Source: Spirochaetaceae bacterium (lineage in GTDB: Bacteria > Spirochaetota > Spirochaetia > Treponematales > Breznakiellaceae). Taken from it: a stretch of DNA of 26,219 nt. Positions 1,962-26,219 of the stretch are shown here, one piece after another. The first letter of the stretch is position 1. Each line of letters starts with the position of its first letter. The notes under the pieces are model-generated. The model searched no databases. It was not told the origin of the DNA and saw nothing but the letters and a program-made list of their open reading frames with translations. The position numbers and the translations under genes are program-made. The stretch is taken from NCBI GenBank assembly GCA_031255315.1, contig JAIRSS010000042.1, positions 1 to 26,219 on the forward strand. The letters are read 5' to 3'.

Positions 1962-3674
1962 AAACGGACTTTCGGAAGCGCCATCTTTATTGTTATGACG
2001 GTCGGCCTAATCTCGTGCGCCGGGAATCCTCCTCCTTCTCCAGATGCAATCCCGCCTGCGGCTGAAGATGAGGGGACTCTGTTCGCGGAACCCCGGCCCG
2101 ACATCACAAACCGGGACGAACTCACGGTGGTCTTTTTCAGCGAAGAACCGGAGCTGGATTTTCGGAAATCCTATTTTGCCAGTGAGGCCCAGATTTTTAC
2201 CGCTTTATACGAAGGTCTTTTTTCCTATCATCCATTCACCATGGAGCCTGTTCCCGCCATGGCCGAGAAATGGGAGCTTTCGGATGATAAAAAAGAATGG
2301 ACTTTTACCTTGCGGGAAGGGGCCAAATACTGGAACGGGGACGAGGTTCGTTCCGAAGATTTCCGCGCCGCCTGGCTTTCTCTGTTGTCCCCCGCACGGG
2401 AATCCCCCTATTCCTCCCTCTTTGACATCATAATTGGGGCGAACGATTACCGTACCGGGCGGCTTTCCAACGCTGACGCGGTGGGGATAGAAACGCCGGA
2501 CAGCCGGACCCTGGTAGTGCGGCTCAACTCTCCGGCGTCTTTTTTTCCGGCCATGCTCTGCCATCATTCCTTCAGCCCCATCCATCCTTCCATGATCAAT
2601 CAGGAGGACTGGTCCGGCCCCGGCGCGCCGCCTGTGTCCAACGGGCCTTTTTATATCACTGAACGGCAAGAAAACACCCTCATCATGGAGAAAAACCCGT
2701 ATTATTGGGATGCGTCTCAGGTAGCTCTCAACAAACTCACTTTCCGGTACACAGAGGATCGGGACGAAAGTACGTCTTACTGGAATTCCGGGGAAGCCCG
2801 GTGGGTTGCGGGGGACATAAATATTGACGCCCTAACGGACCGAAGCGGCATCATAGTGAACGCCTTGTTTGCCACTCATTACTATTTTATACGAGCCGCC
2901 GCCCCCCCCTGGAACGATCACCGGGTACGCAGGGCGCTTTCTATTTCTCTGCCGTGGGAGCAGATGAGGGAAGGTTTCCATCTGCCGGCCAAGACGTTGA
3001 TCTACCGGCTGCCGGGCTACCCGGAGGTTGCGGGTTTTGAGGAACCCGATGTGGAAGACGCAAAGCGGCTTTTAGCCGACGCGGGCTATCCCGGCGGGAA
3101 GGGCCTCCCGGAACTGGTGATACGCCTGACCCCGTCTCCGGACGCGGCCCGGATCGGGGGCCTCATGGCCGCCGCGTGGATGCAGGAACTGGGGTTGACT
3201 GTAAAGATTGACGTGGTCCCCTACGGTCAATACTTCCGGTCCCTGAAAGAGAATGATTACGAGGTGGGGTTTTCCACCTGGATAGGAGATTTTGCGGACC
3301 CTTACACCTTCCTTCAGATGTGGCGGAGGGATTCCAACCTGAACGACGCCCGGTTTGACGATCCTGAGTATGAGGCCCTTATAGACCGGTCCATGACTGA
3401 AGACGGGGAAAAACGCTGGAAAACTCTGGCGGAAGCGGAAAAACTGCTCCTGGACCGGGGAGCGGTCCTGCCAATTTCCTTTAGCTCCGCCCTTAACATG
3501 GTGGATACGGGCGAATTGGAGGGCTGGTTCCCCAATGCGCTGGACATTCATCCCTTTAAGTATCTGGCGTTCAAGGCTTTCAGGCCCCTGCCGGGAATCG
3601 CCGGGGGAGCGGATTTCCCGCCGGGTTACCCTGCCGGTTATTCCCCGGCGTCCGTTGCCGCGCCGGGGCGGTAG
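1959..3674 (+). CDS. Peptide-type ABC transporter substrate-binding lipoprotein (SBP family 5, OppA/DppA-like)
   Basis: A 571-aa extracytoplasmic solute-binding protein of the oligopeptide/dipeptide family (SBP_bac_5). The N-terminus has basic residues, a hydrophobic segment and lipobox LISC with lipidated Cys20. Family hallmarks include the block LYEGLFSYHPFTMEPVPAMA, then WTFTLREGAKYWNGDEV with the characteristic W-x-F-x-L-R pattern, and the later YYWDASQVALNKLTFRY. It should capture peptides or similar solutes and hand them to an Opp-type permease. No permease or ATPase gene is nearby, so it is an orphan receptor here. The C-terminal 30 residues are Pro/Gly-rich and unlike the rest of the family. 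It is co-transcribed with the unknown 465-aa protein. The substrate cannot be read from the sequence. Confidence 0.92.
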   Translation: MKRTFGSAIFIVMTVGLISCAGNPPPSPDAIPPAAEDEGTLFAEPRPDITNRDELTVVFFSEEPELDFRKSYFASEAQIFTALYEGLFSYHPFTMEPVPAMAEKWELSDDKKEWTFTLREGAKYWNGDEVRSEDFRAAWLSLLSPARESPYSSLFDIIIGANDYRTGRLSNADAVGIETPDSRTLVVRLNSPASFFPAMLCHHSFSPIHPSMINQEDWSGPGAPPVSNGPFYITERQENTLIMEKNPYYWDASQVALNKLTFRYTEDRDESTSYWNSGEARWVAGDINIDALTDRSGIIVNALFATHYYFIRAAAPPWNDHRVRRALSISLPWEQMREGFHLPAKTLIYRLPGYPEVAGFEEPDVEDAKRLLADAGYPGGKGLPELVIRLTPSPDAARIGGLMAAAWMQELGLTVKIDVVPYGQYFRSLKENDYEVGFSTWIGDFADPYTFLQMWRRDSNLNDARFDDPEYEALIDRSMTEDGEKRWKTLAEAEKLLLDRGAVLPISFSSALNMVDTGELEGWFPNALDIHPFKYLAFKAFRPLPGIAGGADFPPGYPAGYSPASVAAPGR

Positions 3675-3695
3675 CTTAAAATTAGGTTTTGTGAG

Positions 3696-3701
3696 TATAT
3701 T
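3696..3701 (+). promoter_or_regulatory. Candidate -10 box of a leaderless carD transcript
   Basis: TATATT lies 7 nt before the ATG at 3709, with no Shine-Dalgarno sequence between them. No good -35 hexamer is seen; TAGCTT at 3672-3677 is a poor match at 18 bp spacing. The placement puts the expected transcription start at or next to the start codon. Confidence 0.4.
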
Positions 3702-3708
3702 ATTAGCA

Positions 3709-4221
3709 ATGGACAATGCGGTCATGGAGATTCAGCCCCTGTTTTTTGTGGGCCAGCGAGTTGTATATCCCAGCCAGGGCGTGGGAATTATTAATGCTAT
3801 CGAAACTAAAGAATTCAAGAGTAAAGCAATTCTGTACTATATGATTTATCTTGAAGTTTCTGATATGACCATCATGGTCCCCGTTGAAAAGGCGGAAGAG
3901 CTGGGTATCCGGGCCATTGTTCCCCAGGATGAAGCTGAAAAAGCGCTGGACATGATCGGCGAAGATTACGAGCCTATTCCTTCGGATTGGAAGCTCCGGT
4001 ATCAGATGAATTTGGATCTGCTGAAAAAGGGCAGCGTTATGGACATCGCCTCTATTGTGCGGTCCCTCTATCACCGGAGCAAAGTCAAAGAATTACCCAT
4101 TTTGGAGCGGAAACTGTATGATAACGCCTTGAAACTGCTGGAAGACGAAATCGCCTATTCCCTTCAAAAGCCGAAAGAAGAGGCGGAAACCCTGATCTTT
4201 GCCCGCCTCGAAGCAAAATAA
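3709..4221 (+). CDS. carD: CarD-like transcriptional regulator (CarD/CdnL family)
   Basis: A 170-aa protein. The N-terminal RNA-polymerase-interaction (Tudor-like) domain starts FFVGQRVVYPSQGVGIINAI, the CarD/TRCF pattern. A helical C-terminal domain follows, including DWKLRYQMNLDLLKKGS and VRSLYHRSKVKELPILERKL, where family members contact upstream DNA at the -10 junction. CarD binds the RNA polymerase beta subunit and stabilises open complexes, often affecting rRNA and housekeeping promoters. I chose the ATG at 3709 because the family starts there. The frame stays open upstream to 3535 inside the previous gene, and GTG 3691 and ATG 3724 are alternatives. Thirteen bases separate it from ispD. 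Confidence 0.93.
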   Translation: MDNAVMEIQPLFFVGQRVVYPSQGVGIINAIETKEFKSKAILYYMIYLEVSDMTIMVPVEKAEELGIRAIVPQDEAEKALDMIGEDYEPIPSDWKLRYQMNLDLLKKGSVMDIASIVRSLYHRSKVKELPILERKLYDNALKLLEDEIAYSLQKPKEEAETLIFARLEAK

Positions 4222-22267: not shown

Positions 22268-24271
22268 TTAGTTCTTGCGGTCCTTGCTTCCTATGTCCTT
22301 GATTTTCTGAATCTCGTCCCGTATCATCGCCGCCTGCTCGAATTCCAGCTTTTTCGCATGTTCCAGCATTTCCGCCTCCAGCGCCGCCACAAGATGCTTG
22401 CGCTGGGCGGGAACCAGGACGTTGTAGGACTTCTTGAGAACCTCTATAGAGGTTGCGGCGGCGGCCTGCTCTTCCGACGCGTGACGGACCAGAATATCGG
22501 CGACGGCCTTTTTCACCGTTGTGGGGGTAATGCCGTGTTCCTGATTATAGGCTGTTTGCACGGAGCGGCGGTATTCGGTTTCGGCGATGGCCGCCCGCAT
22601 GGCGTCGCTTTCCCGGTCGGCGTACATGATCACCTTGCCGGCGGCGTTCCGGGCGGCCCGGCCTATGATCTGGATGAGGCTCGTCAAAGACCGCAGGAAT
22701 CCAATTTTATCAGCGTCCAGGATGGCGATAAACGAGACTTCAGGCAGGTCGATGCCTTCTCGCAGAAGGTTGATCCCCACGAGAATGTCGAAAGCGCCCT
22801 GGCGGAGTTGGGTGAGGATTTCCACCCGCTCTATGGTTTCCACCTCGCTGTGAATATACCGCACTTTCAAGCCCAGACCGGAAAGGTAATCCGTAAGGTC
22901 CTCCGCCATCTTTTTCGTCAAGGTGAGGATGAGAGACCGCTCCCCCGCGTCAATACGCCGGCGAACCTCGGCGTAGATGTCCTCCATCTGGCCTTGTGAA
23001 GGACGCACTTCGATTTCCGGGTCCAAAAGGCCCGTCGGCCTGATAAGCTGCCGGACTACCCGCGCAGACATATCCGTTTCGGTTTTACCCGGCGTAGCGG
23101 AGACGTAAACGGTCGTATCCAGCCGCGCGACAAACTCGTCGTACCGCAGGGGCCGGTTGTCCAGGGCGCAGGGGAGCCGGAACCCGTAGTCCACCAGGCT
23201 TTGTTTGCGGCTGCGATCCCCGGCGTACATGGCTCCAAGCTGAGGCAGGGTTACATGGCTTTCGTCGATAAAGGTAAGATGATGTTTCGGCAGGTAATCA
23301 ATCAGGGTGTCCGGGGCGGCGCCCGGCTTTCTACCCGCCAGGGGAGCGGAATAGTTCTCTATGCCCGGACAGTAGCCCATTTCGGTCAGCATCTCAATGT
23401 CATATTCAACCCTCGTCTTGAGGCGCTCGGCTTCAAGCTGCTTCCCGTTGTTTTTGAGGAATTCGTACCGCCCGGCCAATTCTTCTTTAATATCCGCCAG
23501 CGCGTCGTGAATCATGTCCGCCGGCATGACGAACTGTTTGGCGGGGTAAATCACCGCCCGGTCCAGTTCCTCCAGGATTTCCCCGGAAACCGGATTGAAG
23601 CGCCGTATCCGTTCCACCTTGTCCCAGTCCAGGTCCACCCGGTAGGCTTCTTCCATGTAGGCGGGAAATATTTCCAGCGTATCCCCCCGGCGGCGGAACC
23701 TCCCGCGTTCCAGAACCGCGTCGTTCCGCTCATATTGAAGCTCTACGAAGCGGCGGATCAGGGCGTCCGCGTCCACTGTGTCCCCCCGTGAAAAGGAGGC
23801 GGTCATCTTTCGGTAAACCTCCGGCGTCGCCAGGCCGTAGATGCAGGATACGGTGGCCACGATGATCACATCTTCCCGTTCCATAAGGCTCCGGGTGGCC
23901 GACAAGCGGAGCCGTTCAATTTCATCATTAATTGATGCGTCTTTTTCTATATACAAGTCCCGGCTGGCGACGTAGGCTTCGGGCTGGTAATAATCGTAAT
24001 ACGAAACGAAATACTCCACGGCGTTATGCGGAAAGAACCCCCGGAACTCCCGGTAAAGCTGGGCCGCCAGGGTCTTGTTGTGGCTGATTATCAGGGTGGG
24101 CATTCCGGCAGCCTCGATGATCTTCGCCATCGTAAAGGTCTTGCCGGAACCGGTAACCCCCTGGAGGGTTTGGAACCGATCCCCGGCGCGGATTCCTGCG
24201 GCCAACGCGGCAATGGCCTCGCCTTGATCCCCCGCCGGCTGGAACGGAGATACGACTTCAAACGGACGCAT
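22268..24271 (-). CDS. uvrB: UvrABC system protein B (excinuclease subunit)
   Basis: A 667-aa nucleotide excision repair helicase-like subunit of normal length. Walker A is GVTGSGKT (38-45). The damage-probing beta-hairpin region reads EYFVSYYDYYQPEAYVASRD with IEKDASINDEIERLR. Helicase motifs include FIDESHVTLPQ (DEAD-like), VYVSATPG, VGINLLREGIDLPEVSF and QIIGRAARN. The C-terminal UVR motif (about 625-660, LEAEMLEHAKKLEFEQAAMI) contacts UvrC. There is no Shine-Dalgarno sequence; TTGCCT-17 bp-CATAAT ends 6 nt before ATG 24271. No other uvr genes are nearby. It is the last chromosomal-type gene before the AT-rich repeat-bounded segments. Confidence 0.97.
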   Translation of the reverse strand: MRPFEVVSPFQPAGDQGEAIAALAAGIRAGDRFQTLQGVTGSGKTFTMAKIIEAAGMPTLIISHNKTLAAQLYREFRGFFPHNAVEYFVSYYDYYQPEAYVASRDLYIEKDASINDEIERLRLSATRSLMEREDVIIVATVSCIYGLATPEVYRKMTASFSRGDTVDADALIRRFVELQYERNDAVLERGRFRRRGDTLEIFPAYMEEAYRVDLDWDKVERIRRFNPVSGEILEELDRAVIYPAKQFVMPADMIHDALADIKEELAGRYEFLKNNGKQLEAERLKTRVEYDIEMLTEMGYCPGIENYSAPLAGRKPGAAPDTLIDYLPKHHLTFIDESHVTLPQLGAMYAGDRSRKQSLVDYGFRLPCALDNRPLRYDEFVARLDTTVYVSATPGKTETDMSARVVRQLIRPTGLLDPEIEVRPSQGQMEDIYAEVRRRIDAGERSLILTLTKKMAEDLTDYLSGLGLKVRYIHSEVETIERVEILTQLRQGAFDILVGINLLREGIDLPEVSFIAILDADKIGFLRSLTSLIQIIGRAARNAAGKVIMYADRESDAMRAAIAETEYRRSVQTAYNQEHGITPTTVKKAVADILVRHASEEQAAAATSIEVLKKSYNVLVPAQRKHLVAALEAEMLEHAKKLEFEQAAMIRDEIQKIKDIGSKDRKN

Positions 24272-24277
24272 ACGGGT

Positions 24278-24306
24278 ATTATGCGCGCTATGGCGTACAA
24301 AGGCAA
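24278..24306 (-). promoter_or_regulatory. uvrB promoter, leaderless geometry
   Basis: On the minus strand TTGCCT (24306-24301), 17 bp, CATAAT (24283-24278), then 6 nt to the ATG at 24271. No LexA-like box is obvious. Confidence 0.55.
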
Positions 24307-24382
24307 GCGTATTGAAGCACTTGAAGGTTTGCAGTGAACCTCGCCGGGAATCGGCGCCGAACCGGTCCCGCCGCGGATTTTT

Positions 24383-24548
24383 TTATCCGCCATGTTTTTG
24401 ACATGCCGCGAAAACGGGTAATCGTGATACCCATCCTGCGGGTGGAATATGCTGCGGGATGCGCAGCTGGCCTTGATAAATGGAACCCTGGAGGACCAAA
24501 GGCCCTGGAGCCTATACATACATGTTATGCGAAATGGCGGCTAAGATT
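24383..24548. repeat. Degenerate attC-like structured repeat, copy 1 (left boundary of cassette 1)
   Basis: The right half (about 24436-24548) aligns with copy 2: GGGTGGAAT at the start, a shared GCGCAGC, TGGAACCC and the end GTTATGCGAA (24524-24533). The left half has decayed: the R-box-like GCATAAC is lost, but TTATCCGCCAT (24383-24393) still pairs with ATGGCGGCTAA (24534-24544) with one mismatch. If it is an attC site, its crossover would be at G^TTATGC, 24524. The left arm also overlaps a small hairpin, GCGGAT-T6-ATCCGC (24373-24390). Confidence 0.6.
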
Positions 24549-24570
24549 TTTTGATTTTTTTGAAAAGCTA

Positions 24571-24599
24571 TTGACAAAAATAGAATTTGTCGATAATAT
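24571..24599 (+). promoter_or_regulatory. Consensus promoter of the zinc-ribbon gene
   Basis: TTGACA (24571-24576), 17 bp, TAATAT (24594-24599), with TATAAT overlapping at 24597-24602. AAGAGG follows before ATG 24623. It is a near-perfect sigma70 promoter inside the AT-rich segment. Confidence 0.75.
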
Positions 24600-24622
24600 A
24601 ATATTCGATAAAGAGGAACTAA

Positions 24623-25198
24623 ATGTTCTGTATAAAATGTGGAGAACAATTAACGGTGGAAGTTAAATTTTGTCCTAAATGTGGATATATGGTCAATTAT
24701 TTAGTTGCAGGTAATGATCCTTCTCAGAAAAATGATCAAAGTATTGATCGTACAATGTTACAGTCTGAGCAAATTATTTCCAGTATGCCAAAATCAAAAG
24801 CGTTAAAGCATTTTCGAGTTTTTTCAATTATTACAATGATTTTGATGTCTTGTTGCTTTATATATTCTTTAAGATTTGCTCCTTGGAGTTTTTTACCTTT
24901 ATCAACATTTATATTTTATATTATTTTTTCATTTTGGTTTGCTGTTACCCATTCATTAATTGCAATTATAAAAGGTACAGAGAATAATATAAAAATACTA
25001 AAAATTATGGGGATTTTAGGTTTAGTTTTATATCAAGTAGCTTATATTGTTTTATTAATTATTCGATGGTATACAATAATGTATGATGACAAATTATTTG
25101 CATATATAGCATCGATATCCGCTTTCTTAGCTTTTAGTTACGCAACTGTCTTTGCTTTTGTGGTTATTTCATTTGTGAAATGTAAAGTAAAGAAATAA
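24623..25198 (+). CDS. Zinc-ribbon membrane protein (cassette 1 gene)
   Basis: A 191-aa protein. The N-terminus is a compact zinc ribbon, Cys3-x2-Cys6...Cys17-x2-Cys20 (CIKC and CPKC, as in the zinc_ribbon_2 and DUF zinc-ribbon families). A polar linker (about 28-62) leads to four predicted membrane helices (about 65-83, 90-116, 126-148 and 157-185) and a Lys-rich tail. AAGAGG precedes the ATG. Codon use is extremely AT-rich, unlike the rest of the window, indicating acquisition from elsewhere. It fills a repeat-bounded 849-bp unit (GTTATGC at 24524 to GTTATGC at 25373) with its own promoter. The family is common in firmicutes and the function is unknown; the architecture suggests a small membrane stress or defence-type protein, which is only a guess. 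Confidence 0.85.
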   Translation: MFCIKCGEQLTVEVKFCPKCGYMVNYLVAGNDPSQKNDQSIDRTMLQSEQIISSMPKSKALKHFRVFSIITMILMSCCFIYSLRFAPWSFLPLSTFIFYIIFSFWFAVTHSLIAIIKGTENNIKILKIMGILGLVLYQVAYIVLLIIRWYTIMYDDKLFAYIASISAFLAFSYATVFAFVVISFVKCKVKK

Positions 25199-25222
25199 TA
25201 AAAATTTGTATAAAATAATGGG

Positions 25223-25394
25223 GTACGGCGCAACTTCGCATAACGTTCCGGCTGTATGCGACGGTTTTGCAGCCCTGCAAAACTGTGGGTGGAATGAGCC
25301 GTGGGAGGCGCAGCCGACCTAGGCGAATGGAACCCCGGAGCCGCCGAATGGCGGCGGAGCGCATACAGTCCTGTTATGCGAAGTGGCGGCGTAC
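25223..25394. repeat. Complete attC-like structured repeat, copy 2
   Basis: A 172-bp imperfect palindrome. The outer arms 25223-25244 and 25373-25394 match in 20 of 22 positions and contain R-box-like GCATAAC (25238-25244) and GTTATGC (25373-25379), 142 bp end to end. The inner boxes CTGTATGCG (25252-25260) and CGCATACAG (25360-25368) pair perfectly, separated from the R boxes by short unpaired spacers, as in attC folding. The centre has a perfect 9-bp hairpin, GTTTTGCAG/CTGCAAAAC (25264-25283), and CCGCC/GGCGG. The R boxes deviate from the GTTRRRY consensus at one complementary position. Confidence 0.65.
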
Positions 25395-25398
25395 ACCA

Positions 25399-26010
25399 TT
25401 ATTTTATTATTTCCATTATGTTTTTATTTATACTTTTTTCCAATAATATTTTATTCATGTTTTCTTCAAATATTTTCCACCTGTTTTCTTTTCCAAATTT
25501 GTCATATAACCTTTTTAGATATTCCTCCAATTTCTTATTTTTGTCTTTTAATAATAAATAGGTAAATATTTCCATATATTTATGAAGATAATTTTCCAAT
25601 ATCATCAATTCCATTAAATCATTGGTTGTTTTTATTGTTTTATAAAATCGTTCCTCATGTTCAAGGCCATTTTTTATTTCCAATGCTATCTTTCTAATGT
25701 CTGTTCCTTCCTCAATATCATATCCGGTTTTTGGAAAACAGTCATCCTTTAAATTATAATGTGGTTCGTCATTTTTTGGTTCAGACAATCCAGATTTTCC
25801 CATTATCCTATCAATTTCCTTTGAATAAATTTCTCCATAAATATAAAATTTTGTGTGTCCCCAGCCATTTCTACTGCTTAAATTAAAGTGGATTATAAAT
25901 ATCAAATCATCAACGGTTTTATAAAAATATTGTTTGACCTTTTTATAACCGTAATTTTTCAAAAATGGAGTAATTTCATTTTTCATCATATCATCAAATA
26001 ATTCTTTCAT
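25399..26010 (-). CDS. DUF4304-like protein (cassette 2 gene, reversed orientation)
   Basis: A 203-aa soluble protein. The N-terminus (LFDDMMKNEITPFLKNYGYKK, then QYFYKTVDDLIFIIHFNLSS and KFYIYGEIYS) fits the DUF4304 pattern: a helix ending in LKxxGFKKxG followed by a beta-sheet with an aromatic strand. The C-terminal third is helical and Lys/Glu-rich. AAGGAG precedes the ATG at 26010. Base composition is very AT-rich. DUF4304 members are recurrent as solitary genes in mobile or immunity contexts, but their biochemistry is not established. The gene reads leftward, opposite to the zinc-ribbon gene, and its stop lies 20 bases from the R-box-like GTTATGC of copy 2, so the unit is tightly packed. 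Confidence 0.8.
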   Translation of the reverse strand: MKELFDDMMKNEITPFLKNYGYKKVKQYFYKTVDDLIFIIHFNLSSRNGWGHTKFYIYGEIYSKEIDRIMGKSGLSEPKNDEPHYNLKDDCFPKTGYDIEEGTDIRKIALEIKNGLEHEERFYKTIKTTNDLMELMILENYLHKYMEIFTYLLLKDKNKKLEEYLKRLYDKFGKENRWKIFEENMNKILLEKSINKNIMEIIK

Positions 26011-26028
26011 ATCTCCTTCTTTATTTTT

Positions 26029-26056
26029 ATTATAAAGATATTTTTTATTCTGTCAA
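26029..26056 (-). promoter_or_regulatory. Consensus promoter of the DUF4304-like gene
   Basis: On the minus strand TTGACA (26056-26051), 16 bp, TATAAT (26034-26029), then AAGGAG and the ATG at 26010. Both hexamers are perfect consensus. Confidence 0.75.
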
Positions 26057-26085
26057 GTATTTTCAGTTTTTATATATGCCAACCC

Positions 26086-26219
26086 AATTTAGCCACCATT
26101 TCGCATAACGTTCCGGCTGTATATGACGTTTTTGCAAGCCCGATAAAGGAAACCGTAGGTTTCCAGGGCTTGCAAAAATGTGGGTGGAGCGGAGCGTGGG
26201 AGGCGTAGCCGACCTAGCG
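26086..26219. repeat. attC-like structured repeat, copy 3 (cut by the right edge)
   Basis: The left arm TTTAGCCACCATTTCGCATAAC ends in R-box-like GCATAAC (26103-26109), followed by GTTCCGGCTGTAT as in copy 2. The centre differs in sequence but keeps the fold: TTTTTGCAAGCCC (26129-26141) pairs with GGGCTTGCAAAAA (26166-26178), and GGAAACC (26148-26154) pairs with GGTTTCC (26158-26164). Then GTGGGTGGA and GTGGGAGGCGTAGCCGACCTA follow as in copy 2. The right half lies outside the window. Confidence 0.65.

Follow-up and report, generated by a model that had tools for sequence, protein, structure and literature searches.

An integron-type cassette array with long attC sites in termite-gut spirochetes, linked to a recombinase that lacks the I2 helix

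The right end of the DNA analysed here, contig JAIRSS010000042.1 of a Spirochaetaceae bacterium (the window, meaning the whole stretch of 26,219 bases, which is also the whole contig), is in our reading the distal tip of an integron-type cassette array in which each cassette carries one AT-rich gene and one long attC site, a reading to which we give a probability of roughly 0.85. The tip of the array lies on the uvrB side, the right end of the contig falls inside an attC, and any integrase would sit beyond that end. Related sites in other genomes, and the recombinase gene that adjoins them there, point to a widespread gene-capture system of termite-gut spirochetes, the linked enzyme of which, as far as its sequence tells, lacks a helix thought to be essential for capture. 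This integron-specific helix, I2, is held to be necessary for cassette capture and to be found in no other protein (PMC7790495). The UvrB of the window suggests that its source belongs to the family Breznakiellaceae. A limited literature search found no paper reporting integrons in this spirochaete family.

The first-pass annotation, made from the letters of the window, had described three related structured repeats bounding two single-gene units beside uvrB and had called them an integron-like array, and both the description and the name have held up. A covariance model of the attC (R1), built here from 35 sites, 34 of them taken from records other than the window, finds all three repeats and gives three matches in the window: 139.6 bits at 25238-25380, a site that belongs to the training set, and 111.2 bits (the site truncated by the contig end) and 23.8 bits (E 2e-5; the degenerate site next to uvrB) for two sites outside it. 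The heptamer GTTATGC occurs seven times in the window against 2.33 expected, three times outside the array and four times at its sites (24524-24530 on the plus strand, 25238-25244 on the minus, 25373-25379 on the plus and 26103-26109 on the minus). The spacing of 849 bp between GTTATGC sites and the AT-richness of both units were likewise reproduced (GC 0.271 and 0.256 vs 0.572 for window positions 1-24300). The complete site, 142 bp long, folds with z-scores of -5.1 and -6.0 on its two strands, with 0 of 200 shuffles equally stable, and shows three arms in the single-strand fold; the degenerate site still has a fold z of -4.0. Rfam gave no match at the gathering threshold in the window and none at E<=1 in 24300-26219.

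The family to which these sites belong is strongly structured. In its consensus 94.1% of cells are paired, 25 of 43 pairs have changes on both sides, none of 500 shuffles matches the structure on any of five measures, and sliding the structure by 1-3 columns lowers the pairing to 30-44%. From the outside in, a site consists of R box, lopsided central spacer, L box and a branched terminal part, with the outer helix (99.4% of cells paired) and the L-box helix (96.6%) corresponding to paired R and L boxes. The central spacer has four unpaired nucleotides facing none in the consensus (5 vs 1 if a terminal G.U is left uncounted), and the L'' arm has one bulged, base-variable position (T17 A13 G4 C1 of 35 sites); the consensus fold shows no second or third extra-helical base on L''. 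The length of a site is mostly 170-182 nt; the complete site of the window has a shortened first arm, and two of its three terminal arms appear in the consensus.

The polarity of the cassettes was settled by two properties of the arrays. We examined 67 stretches between consecutive same-strand R1 sites, of which 63 contain an open reading frame (ORF) of at least 80 aa and the other four no ORF of 60 aa. The longest ORF runs antiparallel to R1 in 62 of these 63, the sole exception being the window ORF at 24623-25198. The initial polarity, which the first-pass annotation had assumed and R1 shares, was therefore dropped, since both ORF orientation and the matching of cassette ends oppose it, and the first impression that the recombinase lies on the wrong side of the array was removed with the flip. 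It follows from the ORF orientation that the complete cassette of the window is 25244-26108 on the minus strand. The 849-bp unit on the uvrB side, previously taken for the complete one, contains an inverted body.

The second property is a pairing between the two ends of one and the same cassette. Across 67 cassettes, the start that follows G^TT is complementary to the end preceding the cassette's own attC at 10.9 of 16 positions past the R box, vs 5.8 of 16 for other pairings and 5.9 of 16 for 40 neighbouring array pairs (0 of 5000 permutations). R'' is the complement of the start box of its own cassette in 60 of 67 cases and of the adjacent R' in 10 of 67. When 63 cassettes are aligned (three without TTA at start or end and the inverted window body being left out), identity between start and complemented end is at least 0.87 at positions 1-16, except at position 10, where it is 0.02: all 63 starts have A and 62 of 63 complemented ends have G, which makes an A.C mismatch on the top strand and a G.T pair on the bottom strand. 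A 1,424-bp cassette present twice in T. primitia (L139 7383-8806 and L140 12259-13682) is 99.8% identical between its copies and ends on both sides exactly at G^TT, amid different neighbours whose 200-bp flanks are unrelated (0.415 and 0.385 ungapped identity). The matching of own ends and this duplicate, both read from sequence, indicate that the cassette unit ends exactly at G^TT. The complete cassette of the window shows the same own-end complementarity with A/G at position 10, and the segment 24525-25244 satisfies the position-10 rule on the plus strand only. The paired ends of a cassette are inverted repeats, which could permit its body to invert. The features of the array are collected in the table below.

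Features at the right end of the window (1-based coordinates)
Feature	Position	Strand	Remarks
Complete attC	25238..25379	-	R'' 25379-25373, R' 25244-25238; cleavage G^TTATGC after 25244
Second attC, truncated by contig end	26103..26219	-	R' side whole, R' = 26109-26103
Degenerate attC, uvrB-side distal array end	24381..24531	-	R'' 24530-24524 intact, R' side decayed
Complete gene cassette, 865 bp	25244..26108	-	begins TTATGC at 26108, last base = G of R' at 25244
Cassette gene, 203 aa, DUF4304	25399..26010	-	PF14137, N-terminal part of profile, Pfam E 8.7e-8
Inverted cassette body	24525..25244	+	start signal adjoins R'' of degenerate attC; end signal adjoins R' of complete attC
Gene in inverted body, 191 aa	24623..25198	+	N-terminal zinc ribbon PF13240, Pfam E 1.4e-7
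uvrB, chromosomal flank of array	22268..24271	-	up to 93% identical to family members

The array in the window might also be a dead remnant, immobile and cut off from any integrase, which we regard as unlikely yet well worth weighing. In its favour are the decay of the site nearest uvrB, the inversion of one cassette body and the lack of any R1 site around uvrB in 20 relatives, whose flanks span up to 1.5 kb (at least 1 kb on the array side in about 15 of them, less in the rest); in G072 and G067, the main array lies far from uvrB (G and L numbers being our handles for genomes and for contig stretches). Against this, both other sites are intact over the length present in the contig, and the complete cassette keeps its paired ends. 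Because no R1 site was seen in these 20 loci, the position beside uvrB looks lineage-local. The first-pass annotation had proposed to check the units for presence or absence in related strains with exact junctions, and for this comparison the same 20 uvrB loci, without R1 sites, were used; their homology to the window stops near 24314, so that no clean empty site was obtained. Its suggestion that the window holds the decayed end of a longer array fits both the degenerate site on the uvrB side and the tandem arrays of the same sites found elsewhere.

The attC family extends well beyond the window. A search of a species-representative collection for 20 bases from the 5' part of the site gave 94 contig stretches, in bins which we take to be termite-gut metagenomes; 64 of the stretches bear spirochaete labels and 30 others, a spread across phyla that is qualified by the position of several sites at contig ends and by the fact that bins can be wrong, although some of the non-spirochaete contigs hold genes fitting their labels (a protein with type IX secretion system (T9SS) sorting on L020, HrpA on L038). 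Members at contig ends include those at L020 1-77 (Bacteroidales label) and L071 1-113 (Alistipes label). The 20-base pattern occurs in none of the viral contigs searched. R1 sites are present in 36 of 39 of the site-bearing genomes (E<=0.001) and, at E<=1e-6, in 123 of the 145 genomes of the spirochaete family that includes G034; the latter survey scored 18 candidates per genome, so that the site counts for single genomes are lower bounds. At E<=0.01, R1 gives 15 matches in T. primitia ZAS-2 and 6 in L. azotonutricia, which NCBI places in Breznakiellaceae. Chromosomal integrons have been described in Treponema denticola, T. succinifaciens and T. brennaborense, and the same study reported none in termite-gut treponemes (Wu et al. 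2013, PMC3607928); the sites in T. primitia and L. azotonutricia contradict this published lack. Small secondary clusters or single sites also lie far from the main array, at G072:C1:484332-487680, G062:C1:1688656-1691977 and G062 position 3782782.

A tyrosine recombinase of about 400 aa adjoins the arrays and was found in 53 of the 145 family genomes (E<=1e-60). In the complete genome G067, 26 same-strand sites about 0.9 kb apart lie directly downstream of its gene in the 39 kb read. We examined 19 recombinase loci, 18 of the 400-aa type and one of a different type from genome G019, and in 12 of them R1 sites lie on the 3' side in the expected polarity. The attI was located through the complementarity of the first cassette's own ends, with distances counted from the recombinase stop codon in all 12 loci: in nine of them, eight of the 400-aa, IntI-related type plus the G019 locus, a G^TT core 43-492 bp past the stop codon marks the beginning of the first cassette, the start matching its own cassette end at 14-16 of 17 positions, with second-best cores at 6-9. 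The recombinase is transcribed toward attI and along the array in G072, G067, G054, G034, G004, G133, G076, G155, G087, G103 and G062. From the sequences, the enzyme most likely to act on this attC family is this IntI-related recombinase, encoded just upstream of attI in the relatives. The other seven loci are without a downstream site; four of these have 332-721 bp of contig left and three have 2-11 kb. Four loci (G003, G028, G111 and G018) were excluded from the attI test, as the gene is incomplete there or has little or no contig beyond it.

The G019 locus stands apart. On L132 (G019:C5), in a bin labelled Azoarcus, a 294-aa recombinase without I2 (2995-3876) is found beside an attI-like core, together with sites of the same attC family. 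By its relatives it is of a Bacteroidota type, those at 71-74% identity including enzymes of Flavobacteriales and Cyclobacteriaceae, and 7,972 candidates, which may include integron integrases, score E<=1e-60. Among 20 genomes with non-spirochaete labels, the protein was found only in G019 itself and, at 38% identity, in G354.

Several observations speak against the reading of an integron with its own integrase as set out so far. There is no integrase gene in the window. At the start of the first cassette, G155 and G062 match at only 11 of 17 positions and G103 at 8 of 17, and three (G032, G025 and G016) of the 14 recombinase loci that have some 1 kb or more of downstream sequence showed neither an R1 site nor a cassette start, a wider scan included. 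The recombinase of L. azotonutricia (L141, G062:C1:1987781-1988536; P0031) looks defective, with a partial match and an internal stretch missing from the protein. Of 123 genomes with R1 sites, 75 have no recombinase of the linked type at E<=1e-60, which could be due to draft assemblies, to loss of the integrase or to action in trans. Cross-tabulated over the 145 genomes, 48 have both recombinase and sites, 5 the recombinase only, 75 sites only and 17 neither (two unnamed site-negative genomes being taken as G141 and G154), and such co-occurrence counts are weak evidence. Four of the linked recombinases score 200-214 with TIGR02249, the integron integrase model, the cut-off of which is 265, and in structure comparison archaeal XerA and IntI rank about equal.

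An IntI with its extra alpha-helix had been expected at first pass; the integrase linked to these sites instead lacks that helix. In alignment with canonical Treponema IntI, a gap of about 40 aa falls at the I2 position in the linked recombinases, and residues 184-239 of the V. cholerae IntI4 chain, the site of the IntI-specific insertion, face about 14 residues. The IntI-specific domain is absent from the predicted protein, although by sequence the best solved relative is this same IntI4 (177.8 bits), followed by XerA-like enzymes at 165.6 and 158. The four recombinases mentioned above score 206-231 with NF040815 (cut-off 220), two of them passing; the model is called site-specific tyrosine recombinase/integron integrase (XerA-like), a generic name that makes no reference to cassette arrays. 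A fold model (mean predicted local distance difference test score, pLDDT, 78.5; predicted template modelling score, pTM, 0.47) supports a tyrosine-recombinase fold and little more. Proteins above the TIGR02249 cut-off occur in none of the 39 genomes first searched, in 5 of the 145 family genomes, all five without R1 sites, and in 67 of 291 genomes of the order. On L095/L137 (G036:C206:350-1222), in a bin labelled Planctomycetaceae, a recombinase in a 348-aa open frame matches TIGR02249 over positions 11-303 of 315 with 124 bits.

Two other assignments of the recombinase function have to be weighed. The cassettes might be moved by XerC/XerD or another housekeeping recombinase, with the linked enzyme serving something else, and Xer-like proteins are indeed present and are relatives in fold. 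We consider this very improbable, as in a tree the linked enzymes form one clade of their own (99/98) and canonical IntI another (100/100), both apart from Xer (100/100), and as sites follow the recombinase gene in 12 of 19 loci and the first cassette adjoins it in nine; the tree, whose canonical IntI come from this order only, carries a long-branch warning. The chance that this is an ordinary integron, with a canonical I2-bearing IntI whose gene lies at some other place or which works in trans from a different cell, and with the linked I2-less enzyme as a bystander, seems to us slimmer still. Canonical IntI does occur in the order, and in many draft genomes with R1 sites the linked type of recombinase is not seen. 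Yet no searched genome has both: R1 sites were found in none of the five canonical-IntI genomes of the family, and in none of 62 of the order, where an empty answer would alone prove nothing but the same model with the same stricter filters matches 123 of the 145 family genomes. Moreover, G072 has no canonical match, G067 and G062 are not among the five matching genomes of the 145, and attI lies directly behind the I2-less gene.

It is scarcely credible that the sites, highly structured and numerous as they are, are merely structured repeats (terminators, or elements like repetitive extragenic palindromes (REP) or miniature inverted-repeat transposable elements (MITE)) separating AT-rich genes by chance, since exact unit ends, cassette-specific pairing, uniform polarity, an attI and clean-ended duplicates would then be unexpected.

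Set beside known integrons, the arrays with an IntI-related enzyme described here combine familiar and unfamiliar traits. As in integrons of the T. denticola type, the integrase is transcribed toward attI and along the array; unlike the linked recombinases, however, the T. denticola-type integrases exceed the TIGR02249 cut-off, and the insertion is present in their aligned rows. The attC sites of the Treponema integrons given in PMC3607928 measure 63-132 bp, whereas ours are longer. End pairing in T. denticola-type arrays stops at the R box over eight intervals, as opposed to about 16 nt here: own vs other scores at positions 7-17 are 2.4 vs 2.65 and 1.67 vs 1.67 in two such arrays, in which a strict pattern gave 7 and 6 sites, so that some of the eight intervals may span a missed site. 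With Vibrio and class 1 integrons (IntI, the V. cholerae repeats (VCR) and attC), the arrays share the mechanistic outline, the GTT core, a folded attC, R and L boxes and an unpaired central spacer, as outlined in PMC2727003; they differ in lacking the I2 helix and in an end complementarity of about 16 nt with a fixed internal A/G. PMC2727003 also gives attC lengths of 57-142 nt and 9-11 consecutive complementary nucleotides at most cassette ends. Since Vibrio-type ends already pair over 9-11 nt, the novelty lies in the greater length and the fixed internal mismatch, and not in the pairing itself. According to PMC9668308, IntegronFinder requires the IntI-specific domain, and we therefore expect these arrays to be reported as CALIN (clusters of attC sites without an integrase), although here a recombinase does sit at attI, without the domain that is searched for.

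These features can be assembled into a provisional mechanism. A site-specific recombinase would act at G^TT, fusing the attC carried by an excised cassette with either attI or a further attC, and the cassettes therefore sit head to tail; the enzyme of about 400 aa would perform the recombination, presumably on the bottom strand of attC as substrate. In the excised circle the attC stem would be lengthened to about 16 nt by the cassette-specific pairing. After insertion the flanks would come from different cassettes and the pairing would be lost (5.9 of 16), so that integration of a free circle might be favoured over excision. The fixed G.T/A.C position would let the bottom strand fold better, and the extended arm together with the lopsided spacer could set strand and polarity, in place of the contacts of I2 with extra-helical bases; the spacer continues to dictate which strand is used in Vibrio sites that lack extra-helical bases (PMC2727003). 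More tentatively, and with somewhat less than even confidence, we propose that cassette capture without I2 characterises a whole lineage of I2-less integrases using long self-complementary ends, which would be either a survivor from before I2 or a product of secondary loss, and that such enzymes, including Bacteroidota-type ones like that of G019, drive a large hidden class of integrons, reported as CALIN or missed, through which several phyla in the termite gut trade cassettes. A naturally occurring I2-less integron family would demonstrate a different route to the recombination of folded attC sites, its integrases would serve as a reference point for the origin of integron integrases from Xer-like enzymes, and its arrays would bring to light a large store of mobile genes in termite-gut symbionts that has gone unseen.

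As for the genes at the window's own array, the stop codon of the DUF4304 gene lies about 20 bp from its attC (25379-25238), and its product has ten homologues besides itself, the longest contigs of which measure 796-5,654 bases. The window's UvrB, encoded on the chromosomal flank, is 93% identical to the UvrB of two family members.

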